From positions 1-64,000 of the forward strand of contig NZ_LPZN01000044.1 in the NCBI RefSeq assembly GCF_001646655.1: a stretch of 64,000 nucleotides of DNA, given 5' to 3'. The notes under the pieces are model-generated. The model had not been told where the DNA came from, searched no databases, and saw nothing but the letters and a program-made list of their open reading frames with translations. This document shows positions 4,039 through 59,994 of the stretch, in pieces. A program made the position numbers and the translations under genes. How positions within the stretch are numbered: the stretch's first letter is position 1; each line of letters starts with the position of its first letter. This stretch comes from Rhodococcus gordoniae (lineage in GTDB: Bacteria > Actinomycetota > Actinomycetes > Mycobacteriales > Mycobacteriaceae).

Positions 4039-5040
4039 TCAGGAACGACGCGACGCGCGCAGTTCGCGCGGCAGGGCGAACACCAGGGTCTCGTTGGCGG
4101 TCGTCACCGACTGCACGTCGTGGAAGCCGCGCTCGTCGAGGAACTGGACGACGCCCTGGACGAGGATCTCGGGGACCGACGCACCCGAGGTGATACCGAC
4201 GGTCTCGACGCCCTCGAGCCAGGCCGGATCGATCTCCTTGGCGTAGTCGACCAGGTGGGCCGCCCGGGCACCTGCACCGAGGGCCACCTCGACGAGTCGC
4301 ACGGAGTTGGACGAATTCCGCGACCCCACGACGATCACCAGATCGCACTCGGGCGCCATCGCCTTCACCGCGACCTGCCGGTTCTGGGTGGCGTAGCAGA
4401 TGTCGTCGCTCGGCGGATCCTGCAGCTGCGGGAACTTCTCGCGCAGGCGCTGCACGGTCTGCATCGTCTCGTCGACGCTCAGGGTGGTCTGGGACAGCCA
4501 GATGACCTTCTCCGGGTCGCGCACGGTCACCGAGTCGACGGCGTCGGGGCCGTCGACGAGCTGCACGTGGTCGGGGGCCTCACCTGCGGTTCCCTCGACC
4601 TCCTCGTGCCCTTCGTGACCGATGAGGAGGATGTCGAAGTCGTCGCGGGCGAAACGCTTGGCCTCCTGGTGGACCTTCGTCACCAGCGGGCAGGTGGCGT
4701 CGATGGTGCGCAGCTGCCGGGCAGCGGCGGATTCGTGGACCGCGGGAGACACACCGTGCGCCGAGAACACGAGGACGGCGCCTTCGGGCACTTCGTCGGT
4801 CTCGTCGACGAAGACCACGCCGCGTTCGGCAAGCGTGTCGACGACGTGGCGGTTGTGGACGATCTCCTTGCGGACGTAGATCGGCGCGCCGTACTTGTCG
4901 AGCGCTTTCTCGACCGTCTCGACCGCACGATCGACGCCGGCGCAGTAACCGCGTGGCTCGGCGAGCAGAACGCGCTTTCCGGAGGCAGAGGGGCCGGCGG
5001 ACCGTGTGATCCCGACTTCGAGTGGAACAGGCGCAGACAT
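4039..5040 (-). CDS. ispH: 4-hydroxy-3-methylbut-2-enyl diphosphate reductase
   Basis: IspH performs the last step of the MEP isoprenoid pathway, making IPP and DMAPP with a [4Fe-4S] cluster. The three cluster cysteines are seen at C33 (GYCAG), C117 (ATCPL) and C215 (ICYATQ). The HGVSP and TSGASVP motifs are also present. At 333 aa it has the typical actinobacterial length, including a short N-terminal extension before [14 protein letters not shown]. It is transcribed opposite to the xseAB unit, the order known around Rv1110. Confidence 0.97.
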
Positions 5041-5140
5041 GCCTCCAGACTACGGGGCGCGTCGGAGAGGGGCTTCCCAGCTCGCAACCGAGGGGCTCAC
5101 CCGGCTACCAATCACGCCGATCATCGGGCAGTCTTGGGGC

Positions 5141-5818
5141 ATGATCCGTCCACCGTTCCTGGCACGGGTGGCTGCCGGCGTTGCTGTCACCGCGTACGAA
5201 GAGACCCTCAAGCTGCCGAGCACAGCCGTGTCGTTGCCGATGACGACGGTGAGCCAGATCCTGCAGACGACGATGCGGGTGCAACAGGTGATGACCTCGC
5301 TCGCCATCAAGGGCGACCAGTTCTTCGAGGTCTTCGGAGGAGAGCCCGCCGAGACCGCACAGTGGGCGACCTTCGACGACGACGGCTCCTCCCCGTCGGA
5401 CGACGCCGCTCCCTCGACGAATGCCGCCTCGAACGGCGCTCCCGGCCGATTCGCCCTGTACTCGATCCCGCCGGAGACCGAGCCCGATGCGCCTGCCGCC
5501 GAGACCGCGGTCACACCGGCGAAGTCCGGTGCGGCGACCTCGAAAGCACCCGAGAAGACGGCCGCAGCGGAGAAGGCCGGCACGAAGTCCGCCGCCGAAG
5601 GCACGGACACGAAGGTCGCCGACGCCTCCGGAGACCGGTCCGAGATCGTCGAGTACCTCGATTACGACTCGCTGACCCTCGCCCAGTTGCGGGCCCGTCT
5701 GCGCACGCTGTCGGTGGACGAACTCACAGCGTTGCTCGACTACGAGAATGCTCACGCCGCGCGTACTCCGTTCGTGACGATGCTGTCGAACCGGATCACC
5801 AGCGCGCGTAACAAGTGA
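5141..5818 (+). CDS. Lipid droplet-associated protein (Rv1109c-like)
   Basis: The 225-aa protein starts [20 protein letters not shown], chosen over an ATG 45 codons upstream because the family begins here. Residues 1-65 are amphipathic to hydrophobic. A long Ala/Glu/Lys/Asp-rich linker (about 75-165) precedes a conserved C-terminal segment ([20 protein letters not shown]) that looks like a short helical binding module. The position between ispH and xseA matches Rv1109c. The lipid-droplet name is the label I recall for this family and is not provable from sequence. Its stop overlaps the xseA GTG in a GTGA. Confidence 0.6.
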
Positions 5819-7080
5819 CGGCCGGACAGAACGCGGGACGACCGAACTCCGCGGAGCAGCCCTGGCCCGTCCGCACCGTCGCCCAGAAGGTCGCCGGGTG
5901 GGTCGACAAGCTCGGCACCATCTGGGTCGAGGGTCAGGTCACCCAGATCAACGCCCGTCCCGGCACCCGGACGGCGTTCCTGACCTTGCGCGACCCGTCG
6001 GTGGACATGTCCCTGCAGGTGACCTGCTCACCGCAGCTCCTGCAGCAGTCGGGGGTGCCGATCACCGAGGGCAGCCGCGTGATCATGTTCGGGAAGATGA
6101 CCTTCTGGCCCGGTCGCGGCAGCCTCGCGCTGCGGGTCACCGAGATCCGGGCCGTCGGCATCGGGGAGCTGCTCGCGCGCCTCGAGCGGCTGCGCGCGTT
6201 GCTCGCCGCCGAGGGCCTGTTCGACCCGCGGTTGAAACGACCCTTGCCGTTCCTGCCGCGCCGCGTCGGCCTGGTCACCAGCCGCGGCAGCGCAGCCGAA
6301 CGCGACGTGCTGTCGGTCGCGCAGCGTCGCTGGCCGGCCGTGCGGTTCGACGTTCGCCACGCGACGGTGCAGGGCCCCACCGCGGTCACACAACTCATCG
6401 AGGCTCTCGAGGCGCTCGACAGCGATCCGGACGTCGACGTGATCGTTCTTGCCCGTGGCGGTGGCAGCGTCGAGGATCTGCTGCCGTTCTCCGACGAAGC
6501 GCTGTGCCGCGCGATCGCCGCATGCACGACCCCCGTGGTCAGCGCGATCGGCCACGAGCCCGACAGTCCGTTGTGCGATCACGTCGCCGACCTGCGGGCC
6601 GCGACCCCCACCGATGCCGCGAAGCGCGTCGTGCCCGATGCCGTCGCCGAACTCGATCTGGTCGACGAGCTGAGGGCGCGGTCGGCGGCCGCGCTGCGCA
6701 ACTGGGTGCGCCGGGAGGAACACGTCATCGCGCAGATGCGCGAGCGTCCCGTCCTGGCCGATCCGTTCCGCGACCTCGACCGGCGATACGAGGAGCTCGA
6801 GCGGCTGCAGCAGGCGGCACGACGCGACGTCACCCGGCTGATCTCGTCGGAGTCGTCGACGCTCGAACATCTGCGGGCGCGGCTGGGGACCCTCGGCCCC
6901 GCGGCGACCCTGGCGCGTGGCTACGCCGTGGTCCAGCGGATCGTGCCGGGCAGCGACCCGGAGGTGGTACGCACACTCGGCGAGATGCCGATCGGCACCC
7001 AGCTGCGGGTGCGGGTTGCGGACGGCGCGGCCCGCGCCGCCGTCATGGGACACGAACGACAAGGAAGACAGGAACAGTGA
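5815..7080 (+). CDS. xseA: Exodeoxyribonuclease VII large subunit
   Basis: XseA is the catalytic subunit of exonuclease VII, which degrades single-stranded DNA. The N-terminal OB-fold (about residues 18-115) contains [10 protein letters not shown]. The nuclease domain shows [33 protein letters not shown] and SAIGHEPD. The C-terminal part is coiled coil ending in ARGYAVV. Length is 421 aa. It starts with GTG inside the preceding stop codon and ends inside the xseB start, so three genes are translationally coupled. Confidence 0.96.
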
Positions 7081-53953: not shown

Positions 53954-55876
53954 TCAGAACGGTTCCCGGCATCGCCGTGCCATGGACCTTCTTGCCCCTA
54001 CCCCACCTTCCGGACTCCAGGGCAGCCGGATCCTGCCGGCACGGAGCATCCCCACGAGTCGATCCGGGGTCGCGGGCCGACTCAGCAAAAATCCTTGAGC
54101 GCGCACACAACCCAGATCCAGAAGTTCTCTCACCGCTCCTGTCGACTCGACTCCTTCCGCAACGACTCGAAGTCCGAACGACGAGGCCAGACCCACTATC
54201 GAATCGACGATGACCCGATCTTCCTCGCTGTGATCGAGATTCTGCACGAAGCCCCGGTCGATCTTCAGAGTGTCCACGGGGAGGGACTTCAGATGCCCCA
54301 GCGAACTGTATCCCGTACCGAAATCGTCGATCGCGACTCGGACTCCGAGCCTCTCGAGCCGTCGCAGGGTGTCCCTCGTCCGTTGGAGGTCACCGACAAC
54401 GACGTTCTCGGTGATCTCCAAGCACAACTCCGAACCTTCCAGATCGTAGCGTCGAAGGACGGACTTCACCGTCGCATCGAAATCCAGCGACACCAATTGG
54501 ACCGGTGAAACGTTGACGCTCATGGTGATTCGCAGTCCCGGAATCTCACGTTTCCATCCCGCCAGTTGCGCGCATGCACGCGTGATGACCCATTCGCCGA
54601 GTTCGCCGGCAAGATTCGTGGATTCGGCGACCTCGACGAACTCTCCCGGCTGGAGAAGCCCCAGCGGCGAGTGGTTCCACCTCACCAAAGCTTCGACGCC
54701 GAGAATCATGCCCGTACGGAGGTCGATCTCCGGCTGATACTCCAAGGTCAGGTGATCATCGTCGATCGATGTCCGCAGGTTCATCTCGATGATGGTGCGC
54801 CGGTCCCCTTTCTCGTTCATGTCGTCGGTGAACACGCCGACACCGTTGCCCCCCTGGCGCTTGACCACCATCATCGCCTGGTCGGCACGGCTGAGCAGGG
54901 TCGCCGAACCTACCTGCCCCGGAGTTCCGAGTGCCACGCCGACACTGACACCTCGGCCGACGGTCTGACCGCCGAGCGCGACGGATGCCCCCACCACCTC
55001 CTGCAGCACTTCCGCCCGTTTCGTCGCCTCCGCCGGCGACGAAGGACCGGACAGTACGACCACGAACTCGTCGCCACCGAGCCTGGCGACGAGATCGTCG
55101 GACTCACTTCCCTCGGAGAGGCGATCGGCGATACGGCAGAGATACGAATCGGCGGCCTTGTGCCCGAGGAAATCGTTCAACGCCTTGAGCCTGTCGAGGT
55201 CGAGGAACAACACTCCCACGGGACCGGGAGCGCCGTCCTCCAGCCGTTTGTCGAGATACTCGAACAATGCGCGCCGGCTCGCCAGGCCGGTGAGCGAGTC
55301 ATGGTAGGCCGCCCGCCGGAGATCCTCCTCTGCACGGATGCGTGCCTGTACCTGAGCGAGCAGCGCCGCGATGAGCGTCAGGGCGTTGACCTCTTCCTCG
55401 CTCCACGGCCGCGTCGTCTGTTTCACCAGCCCCAATGTGCCTGTCGTGATCCGGCCGGACACGAGCGGGACCGCCGCCAACGACACACCGGACATCCCGG
55501 AGGCGGCGAACACCCGGTCGGCATAACCCTGCGTGTCCTTCCCCGCCTGCAGACCGTTCGTATCGTTCCCCTCGGTCAACAACGGTTCCTTCATGTCCTG
55601 GGCTGCGGCCATGACGGGGTCTGCACTGTGGAAGTAGACCACTCCCAAAGGATCCGGATCCGGTACGTGTTCGCGGGGTGGCCACTCCGCCACCAGAATC
55701 GTCGCGCCGATGTCATGGTCGTTGTAGCGAAGGAAGCACGTATCGACGCCGAGGAACTCGACCAGATCGCGCAGCACGAGACGGACGACCCGGTCGTGGG
55801 ATGCAGCATCTGCGGGCATGAGCCGCGCCGCAATCCGGGTGACCAGACTTTCGAGGGTCCTCTTGCCATCGGGCAT
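53954..55876 (-). CDS. GAF-GGDEF-EAL cyclic-di-GMP enzyme (Rv1354c-like)
   Basis: The 640-aa cytosolic protein has an N-terminal GAF sensor (about 25-180), a GGDEF cyclase domain (185-350) with intact GGDEF at 267-271, and an EAL phosphodiesterase domain (365-620) with EAL at 395-397, DDFGTGYSSLGHL and AEGVES. Both catalytic motifs look active, so it may make and degrade c-di-GMP. Rv1354c has the same layout and the same neighbour. It is the last gene of a five-gene minus-strand set, 18 bp after the ThiF-nitroreductase gene. Confidence 0.93.
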   Translation of the reverse strand: MPDGKRTLESLVTRIAARLMPADAASHDRVVRLVLRDLVEFLGVDTCFLRYNDHDIGATILVAEWPPREHVPDPDPLGVVYFHSADPVMAAAQDMKEPLLTEGNDTNGLQAGKDTQGYADRVFAASGMSGVSLAAVPLVSGRITTGTLGLVKQTTRPWSEEEVNALTLIAALLAQVQARIRAEEDLRRAAYHDSLTGLASRRALFEYLDKRLEDGAPGPVGVLFLDLDRLKALNDFLGHKAADSYLCRIADRLSEGSESDDLVARLGGDEFVVVLSGPSSPAEATKRAEVLQEVVGASVALGGQTVGRGVSVGVALGTPGQVGSATLLSRADQAMMVVKRQGGNGVGVFTDDMNEKGDRRTIIEMNLRTSIDDDHLTLEYQPEIDLRTGMILGVEALVRWNHSPLGLLQPGEFVEVAESTNLAGELGEWVITRACAQLAGWKREIPGLRITMSVNVSPVQLVSLDFDATVKSVLRRYDLEGSELCLEITENVVVGDLQRTRDTLRRLERLGVRVAIDDFGTGYSSLGHLKSLPVDTLKIDRGFVQNLDHSEEDRVIVDSIVGLASSFGLRVVAEGVESTGAVRELLDLGCVRAQGFLLSRPATPDRLVGMLRAGRIRLPWSPEGGVGARRSMARRCREPF

Positions 55877-55894
55877 GATGTCTCCGTCGTCGGG

Positions 55895-58057
55895 TCACCG
55901 CAGGAGAAGTCCGTCGGCGCGCAGGACACGATCGGCGCGACGCCTGCTACGGACCGGGCCCGCAGTCGTCCGACCGATACGCAACAAGAGGGCGATCCCA
56001 TCGTCCTCGTCCACCTGCAGCATATCGGCGAAGTTCCGCTGCAACACCTGTAGAACGTCGGAATGGTCACGGCTCAATCGCTCGAAGTCGGCTCGCGTAT
56101 CGGCATACAGGAAGATCGGAGATACGGGCTGAACGGCCAAGCCGACCGCCTGGGCCGCGATCCACACACTCTCGACGGTCGCACCGGCACGGATGTAGTC
56201 CGCCCCCGAGCGCCTGTCGGTGAACACTGCGACGAGTCCCGCGCTTCCCAGCACTCGGTCGCGGGTCATCTTCCCGAGACCACCCCCGAGCCCCCACTCG
56301 CCGAGCCGGTCGAGAGCATCGTGCCGCAGTACGACCTCGAGCATGGCCGACTCCGCCGTGTCGAGCCCGAGAGAGACCACCTCGATTCCGCTTTCCGGGT
56401 GGGAGTCGCCCGGCCATCGCAGTTCGCCGATCATCTCGGTCCGGAGCGGCCTGTCCAGATACCGCACGCGGTCCGACTCCGACAAGATCTCTGCGATCGC
56501 GGCGAGATCGTTGCTGCCTGTGAGGATCCGGATGCGTCCGTCGACGAGATCGGCGGCTGCGTGCATCGCTTCGAGCTCGCCGTGCGTGATCGTGTGATCA
56601 TCACTGGGGAATCTGTTGGTGGCGCGGGCGAGCATCGGTCCGTAGAACGCCGCGAATTCGTGATCCGAACCGGTTCCCAGCTCCAGCCGGGCGAGCGGAA
56701 TGCCCGGCCGAGCTTCGTCAGGACCATCGACCACCGTATGCGGACCCAGAATCCCGTGGGCGGCTGCGGCCACTCGAGCATTGTGGAGGGCGGCTCCGAG
56801 CGCAACGCAACTGCCTCGGCGATACAGATCCATCAGTACCGGTTCGGGTTCGGTGGCGAGCGCGAAGGTCAGCCGTGTCGGTTCGACGACGATCGTCCAC
56901 GGCTGCGAATTTCCTCCGGACGGTGCCCGGGTCGCGGCGTCGACGACGGCAGCGACCGAGTCCGACCAGGTGTTCTCGTTCGGCTGTGTTGTCTCCGGCT
57001 CCGTTGGGACCGGAAACTGTGGCTCGGGCACAGTGAGACGAAGGTCGAGGTCGACTCGGCACCGACCGGAAGCGACGGAACCGCCGAGGACGATCCCGCG
57101 CACCGCAGTCGCGACAGTGACGCCACCGAGGCCGACGTCTGCACCGAGTTGCGGCCACGCTTCCAGCGATTCCCCTACCTCGAGAAGTGAGGCTGCAAGC
57201 CGTTCGGAGATCTGCTTCGCGTCGAGCAATCTCAGTACGTACGGGACTTTGTCCCGATTCGACAGCGTTCTCAACGTCTCCGGATCGAGGTCGCCGAGCA
57301 ACCCGTGAAACGGTTGCTGTTCGCCATCGAGATCGAACCGCTCGACGTCGAGCAGCCCACGATCGCTGGTGTGCATCACGACGGGAACTCGTCGTCGTGC
57401 CGCGCACGTCCGGATCGACAACTTCACATCGAACGAATCGCACTCGTCGATCACCAGGTCGAGTCCTTCGAAGAAGTCCTCGACCGACTCGGGCGTCACC
57501 CCCTCCGTCCACACCTCGACCGGCAGGTAGGGGTCCAGCTCTGCGATGCGCCGCGCGGCGATCACAGCCTTGTTCACCCCGAGGTCCAGGACCGAGGCGG
57601 GAATCCTGTTCAGGTTGGACAGTTCCAGGATGTCGTGGTCGGCGAGCCGCAGTACACCGCAGGCACCTTCCAACGCCAAGGTGTACGCCACCGTGTGCCC
57701 TACACTCAGTCCGACCACCCCGACGGCGGCGGATCGGAGACGTGCCTGTTCCTCCGCCGTGATCTTGTTGCGGTTACGGTCGAGCCGGAGACGGTCGAAA
57801 CCGGCAGGACCGAGGACCCGGACCGCTACCTCGCGCCAGGGGTAGTAGGCCCACCGAGCGGCTTCGTCGTGGATATATTCGCCTGGCGCGCCGTCGTTGT
57901 CGACGCCGGACCCGAGCGCCGCCAGACCCGCGAGCTGTTCGTCGAGTCGATCCTCCAGGGTGATTCCCCGGCCCTGCAGTCGTTCGAACTCGACCATGTC
58001 CTCGTCGCAATCCTCCGCCAGGAGAACTGCCTCGAAACGCGGTTCGCGGACGTTCAC
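55895..58057 (-). CDS. ThiF/E1-like adenylyltransferase fused to nitroreductase domain (Rv1355c family)
   Basis: The 720-aa protein has a leader region (1-105), a ThiF/E1-like adenylating domain (about 108-250) with DHDILELSNLNRI, and a C-terminal FMN-nitroreductase-like domain (about 400-720) with DAATRAPSGGNSQPWTIVV. The usual GxGGxG nucleotide loop is altered to GLSVGH, so ATP use is uncertain. GTG 58057 overlaps the upstream stop (GTGA). Rv1355c (called moeY) has this fusion and lies next to Rv1354c. Substrate unknown; a moco role is not supported by neighbours. Confidence 0.85.
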   Translation of the reverse strand: MNVREPRFEAVLLAEDCDEDMVEFERLQGRGITLEDRLDEQLAGLAALGSGVDNDGAPGEYIHDEAARWAYYPWREVAVRVLGPAGFDRLRLDRNRNKITAEEQARLRSAAVGVVGLSVGHTVAYTLALEGACGVLRLADHDILELSNLNRIPASVLDLGVNKAVIAARRIAELDPYLPVEVWTEGVTPESVEDFFEGLDLVIDECDSFDVKLSIRTCAARRRVPVVMHTSDRGLLDVERFDLDGEQQPFHGLLGDLDPETLRTLSNRDKVPYVLRLLDAKQISERLAASLLEVGESLEAWPQLGADVGLGGVTVATAVRGIVLGGSVASGRCRVDLDLRLTVPEPQFPVPTEPETTQPNENTWSDSVAAVVDAATRAPSGGNSQPWTIVVEPTRLTFALATEPEPVLMDLYRRGSCVALGAALHNARVAAAAHGILGPHTVVDGPDEARPGIPLARLELGTGSDHEFAAFYGPMLARATNRFPSDDHTITHGELEAMHAAADLVDGRIRILTGSNDLAAIAEILSESDRVRYLDRPLRTEMIGELRWPGDSHPESGIEVVSLGLDTAESAMLEVVLRHDALDRLGEWGLGGGLGKMTRDRVLGSAGLVAVFTDRRSGADYIRAGATVESVWIAAQAVGLAVQPVSPIFLYADTRADFERLSRDHSDVLQVLQRNFADMLQVDEDDGIALLLRIGRTTAGPVRSRRRADRVLRADGLLLR

Positions 58058-58839
58058 GGCACCCCCCCGTTCGATTCTCTCCGATCGTCGATCCTCCGAT
58101 GCGACCGTGAGAGGTTCCACCACCCCGGGATCGTGCGGGAAGACAGGAGTTTCTCGATTTCTCTGCTCCTTCTGGACGCATCGCAACACGCGAGATCCCA
58201 CAACAACATCCGTGTGCGATAACGGTCATCCGGATACGGAGTGGGAGGAACGTCATCCACGACGCAAGCCTCCGCACGCCGCCACATCCCCAACGCGTTG
58301 TCCGCAGCTGTCCCGAGGAGGAACCTGGCGCCGAGCAGTTCCATGAAGTAGGTCGCCGTGCGCGCCACTCCCGCACTCAGTTCGTGACGCCGCGGAACGT
58401 CGTCGGCCACCCAACCCGTCTTGGCCTCGACGAGACCATGGGGAATACAAGGCTCGAGGATGCGGGCGATCTCCGCCCGGGCGGCCGGATCCGTCCATTC
58501 GACGAACGGATGCGACTCGGTCACGCTCGTATACGGACCGAGAGCGCGTGATCCGCCGTGCACGGTGCCGTCGACAGCGACCGCAACGAAGAACAACGCT
58601 GTCGACGTTCCGTCGCGGATCAGGTCGTGTTCGAGAGCGACTTCGACGTCGAAACGCCGGTAGGCGTCATATGCACCATCGAGGAACTGCGACCACAAAC
58701 CCGGTTCACTCTCCGGTGAGGCGGCGACGAAGTGATATCCCGAGTCTTCGTCCCAGAAATGGAGCGTGTGGTGCGCGAACAACGGTTGGGGATCCACGAC
58801 GACCTTTCCCCCCGGCGTCCCACCGAGCGCCCCCGACAC
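58054..58839 (-). CDS. Acyltransferase-like protein of unknown function
   Basis: The 261-aa protein contains STALFFVAVAVDGTVHGGSR, a conserved acidic VEAKTGWVADDV, and TYFMELLGARFLLGTAADNA. The strand-helix order resembles GNAT-fold N-acyl amino acid synthases, but the similarity is by eye only. There is no signal peptide. It starts with GTG at 58839 (GTG 58797 with GGGGGGAAAG upstream is possible). Its stop overlaps the ThiF-nitroreductase start, so the two are coupled. Confidence 0.6.
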   Translation of the reverse strand: MSGALGGTPGGKVVVDPQPLFAHHTLHFWDEDSGYHFVAASPESEPGLWSQFLDGAYDAYRRFDVEVALEHDLIRDGTSTALFFVAVAVDGTVHGGSRALGPYTSVTESHPFVEWTDPAARAEIARILEPCIPHGLVEAKTGWVADDVPRRHELSAGVARTATYFMELLGARFLLGTAADNALGMWRRAEACVVDDVPPTPYPDDRYRTRMLLWDLACCDASRRSREIEKLLSSRTIPGWWNLSRSHRRIDDRRESNGGVP

Positions 58840-58866
58840 GGATGCGCGCTCGGTGGCCGGGCGTTC

Positions 58867-59292
58867 TCAGAACACCGAGATGTACAACTCGGGTTCGCCC
58901 CGCTCCGGTATGTAGGCCACTTCCTGGTCGTATGTGCGTGAGATGGCGCCTTCTTTCTCCGCCATCTCCACTTGGCGCCAGAGATCCTTGTAGGGATCCG
59001 GCGACGGACCGTCGGGCACGAAGCGGGCGGCGTACCGCTCTCCGAGCCGGACCATCGAATCTCCGATCACAAGATCGTCCGGATCATCCAGGCGATACCC
59101 GAAGACCGCGGACCACCCTGCCCGCGGATGGCAGACGAATACGGCGACGAGGTCGCGGATCTTCCGGGAACGCAACCGTTCCAGCGTGAAATCGGTCAAA
59201 CTGCCCGATTCCCCGAAGACACCCGGTTCGGCGCCTGGGACCACCAGCCCACCCATGAGGCAGGGCCCCACCTTCACGACGGTGAAAGTCAT
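58867..59292 (-). CDS. GyrI-like ligand-binding domain protein, copy 2
   Basis: The 141-aa protein resembles the effector-binding (GyrI/AraC C-terminal) fold: SMVRLGERYAARFVPDGPSP, then YKDLWRQVEMAEKEG and a final paired-strand element YIPERGEPELYISVF. It is a paralogue of the next gene upstream, sharing the DLWRQ...AE.EG block. The ATG at 59292 overlaps the upstream stop in TGATG. There is no DNA-binding domain, so it is a free ligand binder. Confidence 0.65.
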   Translation of the reverse strand: MTFTVVKVGPCLMGGLVVPGAEPGVFGESGSLTDFTLERLRSRKIRDLVAVFVCHPRAGWSAVFGYRLDDPDDLVIGDSMVRLGERYAARFVPDGPSPDPYKDLWRQVEMAEKEGAISRTYDQEVAYIPERGEPELYISVF

Positions 59293-59753
59293 CACTCCTC
59301 CCCGCGTCCCGGAACGACGATCGCGACGTACAGGTCGATTCCGAATGCGTGGGGATAGGACTCGAAATCCCCGGTGAAGGCTCGGATGATCCTCCCCTCC
59401 GCTTCGGCATCCCATATCTGCCGCCACAGGTCGTCGAAGATATCGGTGAAGCGGCTCCCCACCACCGAGAACTTCGCATAGGTGCCGGCAGGGACACGGG
59501 AGATGACGTAGCCGGGGGGTACGTCATCGATCGACTCGCAGCAGAACCCTACTGTCTGTGTGTAGTAGGACCCTATGTCCTCCGCGTGATCGGTGTACGC
59601 GGTCGCGAACGGTCCGGACGTGTCTCCGTTGAGCACAGCCGACCACGCGATTTCGAGGTGTGGATCACGAAGTTTGCCGAGGGCTCGCCGCGGACTTCGA
59701 ACGGGCACACCGGCCACCAGAGTTTCGCGACGTTCCACGATTTGAAACGACAT
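59292..59753 (-). CDS. GyrI-like ligand-binding domain protein, copy 1
   Basis: The 153-aa protein starts MSFQIVERRETLVAGVPVRS, typical of GyrI-like proteins, with VPPGYVISRVPAGTYAKFSV, FDDLWRQIWDAEAEGRI and FESYPHAFGIDLYVAIVVP. Such folds bind small hydrophobic or cationic ligands; some hydrolyse them. It is the first gene of the minus-strand operon running to the c-di-GMP enzyme. No helix-turn-helix is fused. Confidence 0.7.
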   Translation of the reverse strand: MSFQIVERRETLVAGVPVRSPRRALGKLRDPHLEIAWSAVLNGDTSGPFATAYTDHAEDIGSYYTQTVGFCCESIDDVPPGYVISRVPAGTYAKFSVVGSRFTDIFDDLWRQIWDAEAEGRIIRAFTGDFESYPHAFGIDLYVAIVVPGRGEE

Positions 59754-59994
59754 CGGGCAGAACCTCCAAACGCGACTACATCGTCCCCCCCTGCTTCGCG
59801 TGCACTGCCCGACACCGGCACATCGAATGGGACGAGTACGAGCCTAAGGGGTGAAACGGATGGTTTCAAAGGTTCTGCAAAACCAACATAAGGTCTTTTT
59901 TTAGCTTGTTTCCCTTCTCCAGGTATGGTTTATTTGGGGCATCGATTTCGGGGCTCGAGATCGGACACGCTCTTCCCACCGAGGGGGCACCTGC
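59754..59994. promoter_or_regulatory. Divergent promoter region with AT-rich pocket
   Basis: This 241-bp gap separates the minus-strand GyrI-GGDEF operon from the plus-strand sugar operon. Bases about 59855-59935 are AT-rich (AACATAAGGTCTTTTTTTAG and TATGGTTTATTT). TTGTTT with TATGGT about 16 bp later is a fair plus-strand promoter. Both operons probably start here. Confidence 0.45.

Follow-up and report, generated by a model that had tools for sequence, protein, structure and literature searches.

A probable five-gene operon of Rhodococcus gordoniae combines two genes for the predicted synthesis of acyl tryptazolones with the only GGDEF gene found in this genome, which encodes an enzyme of cyclic di-GMP (c-di-GMP) turnover, and with a pair of GyrI-like proteins. 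It lies in the 64,000-nt stretch of DNA that was analysed (the window), which is part of contig C69 of a 4.82 Mb genome. Comparison of genomes makes a functional tie between this tryptazolone (trz) locus and c-di-GMP likely. Our overall reading, to which we give an even chance, is that the operon is a tryptazolone unit whose product signals through c-di-GMP, with the GyrI pair receiving it. New here are the scale and exclusiveness of the link between trz genes and a diguanylate cyclase, the replacement of one cyclase type by another, the tie of the GyrI pair to the cyclase and the fusions of TrzA with TrzS.

The open reading frame (ORF) list and translations gave five ORFs, all on the minus strand and running from 59753 to 53954 in the order GyrI1-GyrI2-TrzA-TrzS-cyclase, which bears out the layout and the spacing described in the original prediction. 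GyrI1 (59292..59753, 153 amino acids) is a free-standing GyrI-like/Cass2 ligand-binding protein according to Pfam; its gene overlaps by 1 bp at 59292 with that of GyrI2 (58867..59292, approximately 140 amino acids, ATG at 59292), a diverged second GyrI-like protein. A gap of 27 bp separates the end of GyrI2 at 58867 from the GTG at 58839 that probably starts TrzA (58054..58839, start uncertain), by orthology an acyl-CoA:tryptophan N-acyltransferase. The TrzA end (58054) overlaps by 4 bp with the GTG (58057) of TrzS (55895..58057), a ThiF-type cyclase joined to a flavin-dependent oxidase of the nitroreductase fold. The last gene (53954..55876), starting at 55876 and thus 18 bp after the TrzS end at 55895, encodes a GAF-GGDEF-EAL diguanylate cyclase/phosphodiesterase of the DcpA/Rv1354c type. 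For TrzS and GyrI2 the ORF list gives longer frames, from 58201 and 59427 respectively; these are mechanical products, and the fitting starts are 58057 and 59292. The full order with TrzA and full-length TrzS was also found in four genera (g1, g38, g39, g40), and two more show a variant order, one in which TrzA was not found (g31) and one with a ThiF-only TrzS (g32). Since the order recurs across several genera, the five-gene arrangement is not due to chance. As the universal form of the locus the five-gene unit was rejected, because just 21 of the 62 genomes with a TrzS-type match have the GyrI pair next to it.

The identity of the window TrzS is well supported by its match to NF005901, the Rv1355c family (836.9 bits, cut-off 476), as predicted originally, and the ThiF (PF00899, 81.6 bits) and nitroreductase (PF00881, 32.8 bits) domains are both above the Pfam cut-off. 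A DECDS motif with D204 and D207 is present; in the M. smegmatis TrzS the catalytic residues are D217, R540 and Q651. The window TrzA has no Pfam or NCBIfam match, and alignment against the sequences of solved structures gave weak unrelated matches only. It adjoins TrzS upstream and shares 27-39% identity with 13 homologues in the same place in Rhodococcus, Rhodococcoides, Jiangella and Phytoactinopolyspora. The original prediction had guessed an acyl or aminoacyl transferase for this gene, and by orthology the acyltransferase part is right. It also travels with the Rv1355c-type gene: in 81 of 90 actinobacterial loci no more than 1.5 kb separates TrzA from TrzS, in 4 the distance is 4-6 kb, and in 5 TrzA was not found. 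In ten loci (L030-L034, L182-L186), which come from uncultured Actinomycetes and two other families of the phylum and may include the same species from two collections, the two are fused in one frame of approximately 940-1000 residues. The comparison argues that TrzA and TrzS belong together.

The chemistry of these proteins was published in December 2025 (PMC12856293): Rv1356c is TrzA and acylates tryptophan, Rv1355c is TrzS and cyclises and oxidises the product to N-acyl tryptazolone, and active homologues were described from M. smegmatis and R. jostii RHA1. The systems of M. tuberculosis, M. smegmatis and R. jostii RHA1 show the same order of TrzA and TrzS, the same fusion of ThiF and oxidase and a neighbouring c-di-GMP gene (PMC12856293). 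By orthology to these relatives, the window pair is very probably a set of tryptazolone-making enzymes. The statement that the Rv1354c-Rv1355c core has no known product is thus outdated, and the idea of a link to c-di-GMP is already in print: one sentence on the c-di-GMP genes adjoining the M. tuberculosis locus suggests a signalling role (PMC12856293). The main text of that paper mentions such neighbours this once, for M. tuberculosis only, and contains neither "GyrI" nor "GGDEF". An older annotation of the ThiF protein as a molybdopterin enzyme was rejected in favour of the tryptazolone chemistry.

The tie to c-di-GMP was examined in an evenly drawn sample of 151 genomes of the family (TrzS-type match E ≤ 1e-100, GGDEF E ≤ 1e-20). 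TrzS-type matches were found in 62 genomes, five of them through a ThiF-only relative alone, and GGDEF matches in 97, which include all 62. Thus none of the 54 genomes without GGDEF has TrzS, whereas 35 of the 97 with GGDEF are without it (Fisher test 2e-17 over the 151 genomes, relatedness ignored). The two genes are also close neighbours, at most 3.3 kb apart in 60 of the 62 genomes and 5.7 and 6.3 kb apart in the remaining two; the chance expectation, computed from the GGDEF numbers per genome (counted up to 22), is 0.94 of 62. Among the 90 actinobacterial loci, the distance is at most 3.3 kb in 87 and at most 6.5 kb in 89; the remaining locus (L085) ends at a contig edge, and GGDEF is present on the other part of it, L168, which is itself one of the 90. 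Congeners and named relatives are part of this set, and at least one genome is in it twice (L023, L137). The GGDEF profile behind all these distances was built from 30 GGDEF stretches of the same loci, and the domain was checked with Pfam in the window, in two further loci (L155, L110) and genome-wide in the family sample, and recomputing the distances without weak domain matches left the counts unchanged. Gene labels in the neighbourhood maps are best-match labels, and the gene caller overlooked TrzA in some loci. Matches of 43 residues labelled as diguanylate cyclase, which stood beside TrzS in one genus, stemmed from a read-through query and were not counted.

The original prediction described the core as conserved in mycolic-acid bacteria, which is too narrow. 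TrzA, TrzS and the cyclase are all present in Jiangella, Phytoactinopolyspora and two further families of the phylum, where TrzS is rare: it was found in 16 of 396 genomes of a phylum sample, five of them outside the family. All five loci examined from two other families have GGDEF near TrzS, and GGDEF adjoins the TrzS relative in all five ThiF-only places. ThiF-only relatives that lack the oxidase domain and still stand beside GGDEF genes were seen in L112, L129, L130 and L173-L180.

The cyclase of the window contains EAL (232 bits), GGDEF (125 bits) and GAF (37 bits) domains in the Pfam scan, and its GGDEF, EAL and DDFGTG motifs are intact by eye, as expected for the Rv1354c type proposed originally. 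It shares this architecture and the intact motifs with DcpA/MSDGC-1 and Rv1354c (PMC2994820, PMC8846402); M. tuberculosis has one GAF-GGDEF-EAL and one EAL-only protein (PMC2994820). In contrast to the window locus, the portions of these accounts consulted do not connect the enzyme with oxazolone synthesis or with GyrI-like partners. The operon cyclase is the single GGDEF match of the window genome (G000, E ≤ 1e-10). Exactly one GGDEF match (E ≤ 1e-20) was found in 23 of the 151 genomes. TrzS is present in 14 of them, each time with that GGDEF gene at the trz locus. In three more (G008, G014, G016) TrzS was not found and the sole GGDEF gene stands beside a GyrI pair. The other six have no TrzS match (G023, G066, G067, G069, G077, G166), and in one of them (G077) the stretch fetched around a GyrI pair contains no cyclase. 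Within the genus, 12 of 14 genomes have one GGDEF match at E ≤ 1e-10 and two have a second one.

The partner at the trz locus is not always the same protein. A DcpA-type GAF-GGDEF-EAL enzyme is found in ten genera of the family, and in five other genera and the ThiF-only loci of g6 the partner is a multi-transmembrane (multi-TM) GGDEF protein with approximately six hydrophobic segments and neither GAF nor EAL, a class for which one protein was scanned with Pfam and hydropathy and the others were assigned by eye and match length. In a single case from another family (L110), a GAF-GGDEF protein lies approximately 2 kb away. The label "other GGDEF" for two loci (L104, L115) stands for cut or split DcpA-type matches. 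The presence of different cyclases in the same place points to function rather than to inheritance of one block. Where the partner is of the DcpA type, conservation among 15 representatives is 0.482 for GAF, 0.488 for GGDEF and 0.556 for EAL; that GAF is as conserved as GGDEF suggests that it has a fixed ligand. In one of G008, G014 and G016, in which trzAS was not found (L080, approximately 4900-7000), approximately 2 kb of other DNA separates the GGDEF part of the cyclase gene from its EAL part.

The claim of a GyrI-like pair proved right. GyrI1 matches PF14526 (Cass2, 2.8e-16, 60.5 bits, cut-off 27) and PF06445 (35 bits), and its closest solved sequence is 3gk6 VCH_CASS2 (5.8e-05). GyrI2 is a diverged relative with 26% identity to GyrI1; the window copy has no Pfam match, and of seven homologues of this second gene, three are above the Cass2 cut-off, two slightly below and two without match. 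Ten residues of GyrI1 (W37, Y53, D55, Q66, C72, F95, W110, E117, E131, Y133) are identical in every one of the 33 copies that have TrzS or the cyclase nearby, including those without trzAS.

Across the 18 genomes retrieved for the genus, GyrI1 is present in 14 of 14 with GGDEF and in none of the four without, TrzS was found in 11, and GyrI2 adjoins GyrI1 in the fetched loci. In G008, G014 and G016 TrzA was likewise not found and the GyrI pair is kept beside the cyclase. A tree of pair and cyclase places these three genomes at two separate, well-supported positions, which indicates more than one loss of trzAS or, less simply, more than one gain. The GyrI pair tracks the cyclase more closely than it tracks the enzymes. 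In the family sample the pair was found in 40 genomes, 31 of them with a TrzS-type match (Fisher 6e-8). The expectation that the GyrI-like genes travel with the Rv1355c type holds in part: they adjoin the TrzS-type gene in the 21 genomes mentioned above (g1, g31, g32, g38, g39, g40) and lie elsewhere in the genome in 10 further ones. Three genera (g32, g39, g40) have an additional unlinked pair. In a g32 genome a DUF6875 gene (208 bits) lies between the GyrI pair and the cyclase (L181:5207-5956).

Taken together, the locus may unite a tryptazolone biosynthesis unit with its partners in signal transduction. TrzA would N-acylate tryptophan and TrzS would cyclise and oxidise it to N-acyl tryptazolone, as shown in relatives. 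The oxazolone or the acyl-tryptophan would then be a chemical signal that acts via c-di-GMP, whose synthesis and breakdown both fall to the GAF-GGDEF-EAL enzyme of this operon. GyrI1 and GyrI2 probably form a heterodimer, with the aromatic and acidic pocket kept in GyrI1 and GyrI2 diverged; the pair might bind tryptazolone, acyl-tryptophan or a related planar aromatic ligand. On the receiving side it might present, buffer or hydrolyse this ligand for the cyclase, the weakest step of the scheme. That the family sample shows no TrzS without GGDEF and much GGDEF without TrzS is as expected if the product were useless without its transducer, a one-way dependence as in the case of LuxI and LuxR solos. 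This dependence, the conservation of GAF, the GyrI1 residues and the precedent of BrlR, whose GyrI-like domain reads the endogenous aromatic signal pyocyanin (PMC6028453), lead us to prefer tryptazolone or acyl-tryptophan as input and c-di-GMP as output, a direction that we favour slightly. The distribution within the genus and the retention of the pair beside the cyclase where trzAS is missing place the pair on the receiving side, although we rate its role as receiver at a little under even. Of the small-molecule pathway feeding into c-di-GMP that was proposed originally, the tie to c-di-GMP stands and the feeding step stays conditional.

Several observations weigh against this reading. The direction of signalling is not given by gene neighbourhood alone, and the Fisher values overstate independence because the genomes are related. 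Acyl-tryptophan is mostly extracellular and tryptazolone mostly intracellular, and in M. tuberculosis no tryptazolone was detected (PMC12856293). Nine of the 40 genomes with the GyrI pair have no TrzS match and one (G052) has no GGDEF match; together with the linkage in 21 of 62 genomes this means that the pair is no universal receptor. The multi-TM partners without GAF need another coupling route, and one shared oxazolone-binding domain cannot explain all lineages. Finally, the GAF domain of DcpA, the M. smegmatis orthologue of the cyclase, is reported in a review to bind GDP, which lowers synthesis (PMC8846402).

The last two points fit an alternative to which we give perhaps one chance in a few: c-di-GMP would control the production, release or use of tryptazolone, the cyclase would sense another cue, such as GDP in DcpA, and the GyrI pair would handle tryptazolone or another ligand. 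The linkage of TrzS and GGDEF fits this alternative too. It is opposed by the Pfam scan, which found no c-di-GMP-binding domain in TrzA or TrzS, and by the GyrI pair remaining with the cyclase where trzAS is absent.

Rather unlikely, in our estimate, is a role of GyrI1 and GyrI2 as hydrolases, akin to the GyrI-like cyclopropanoid hydrolases (CCH enzymes), that detoxify the oxazolone or quench its signal by opening its reactive ring. Some GyrI-like proteins hydrolyse reactive ligands, and the CCH enzymes rely on two acidic residues together with a cage of aromatic ones (PMC5684135). The invariant W37, Y53, F95, W110, Y133, E117 and E131 of GyrI1 are candidates for such a site, which would include a putative acidic pair. 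Tryptazolones are moreover easily hydrolysed, and producing strains show uncyclised desaturated species (PMC12856293). Against this stand G008, G014 and G016, which keep the pair with no TrzS match, and the pairs of several genera that sit away from trzAS. Ordinary co-location, through shared growth-phase regulation or an old inherited block with no direct signalling link, is improbable: much of the genus has the same enolase, lytic transglycosylase or sugar-modification genes nearby, so inheritance does keep the locus together there, but the closeness of TrzS and GGDEF survives changes of order, strand and cyclase type across families, and the two co-occur genome-wide.

Related pathways are known. 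OxzAB of Pseudoalteromonas and TyzACB of M. tuberculosis likewise combine an N-acyltransferase, a ThiF cyclase and a flavin oxidase to make acyl oxazolones (PMC12856293, PMC10404671). Their substrates are aromatic amino acids, as in the trz pathway, and the products are derived from tyrosine or phenylalanine, unlike those of trz. No GGDEF was found in the fetched stretches around 13 non-actinobacterial TrzS relatives, a weak contrast because some stretches lie at contig ends and some lineages possibly have few GGDEF genes. On the side of the GyrI pair, BrlR with pyocyanin (PMC6028453), the CCH enzymes (PMC5684135) and Cass2 belong to the same domain family and take small planar aromatic ligands; the window pair differs in consisting of two stand-alone domains encoded by overlapping genes and linked to a cyclase. 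The literature searched, which included few subscription papers, gave only PMC12856293 for "tryptazolone", nothing on the GyrI pair of the trz locus (the supplement of PMC12856293 aside) and, for oxazolone with cyclic di-GMP, PMC12856293 and otherwise papers unrelated by title.

The remaining features lie around the operon. An inverted repeat (TCGGGCAG...CTGCCCGA, 59751..59812, minus strand) encloses the ribosome-binding site and the start codon of GyrI1. Its core TCGGG...CCCGATG is found in most of the genus members shown, with no covariation; the fold z-score is 0.77, so that the hairpin is not more stable than shuffles, and an Rfam scan of the operon start gave no credible match. A translational switch at this site is possible. 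The single terminator-like site on the minus strand of the scanned stretch lies past the last gene, in a number of sites not above shuffles. One flank carries an enolase (by eye) and a lytic transglycosylase, the other a divergent methyltransferase and sugar-modification genes, and these genes are taken as lying outside the unit.

In some other genera a TetR gene whose product is best matched by NF041196, the model of ScbR-type butyrolactone receptors, stands beside the GyrI pair (g6) or upstream of the operon (g40). Such genes, by the pair or upstream of trzAS, were listed for L083, L085, L088 and L136 and for L090, L091, L093, L095-L097, L114, L134 and L135. Five of the proteins score 139.5-143.1 bits, below the curated cut-off of 150, and two were cut N-terminally by the gene caller. 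At the window locus no match to this gene was found.

The near-obligate link of trz genes and cyclase, the location of the genome's only cyclase in the operon and the new candidate ligand-binding pair allow tryptazolone and c-di-GMP to be studied together in safe laboratory actinobacteria. More speculatively, and with a low expectation of being right, acyl-tryptazolones would be a lactone-type hormone of Actinomycetota with c-di-GMP as its transducer, trzAS being the sender and the GyrI heterodimer and cyclase the receiver, and the butyrolactone-receptor-like TetR protein would join the module in some genera. If this were true, the strains that keep the GyrI pair and the cyclase without trzAS would be listeners, comparable to LuxR solos.

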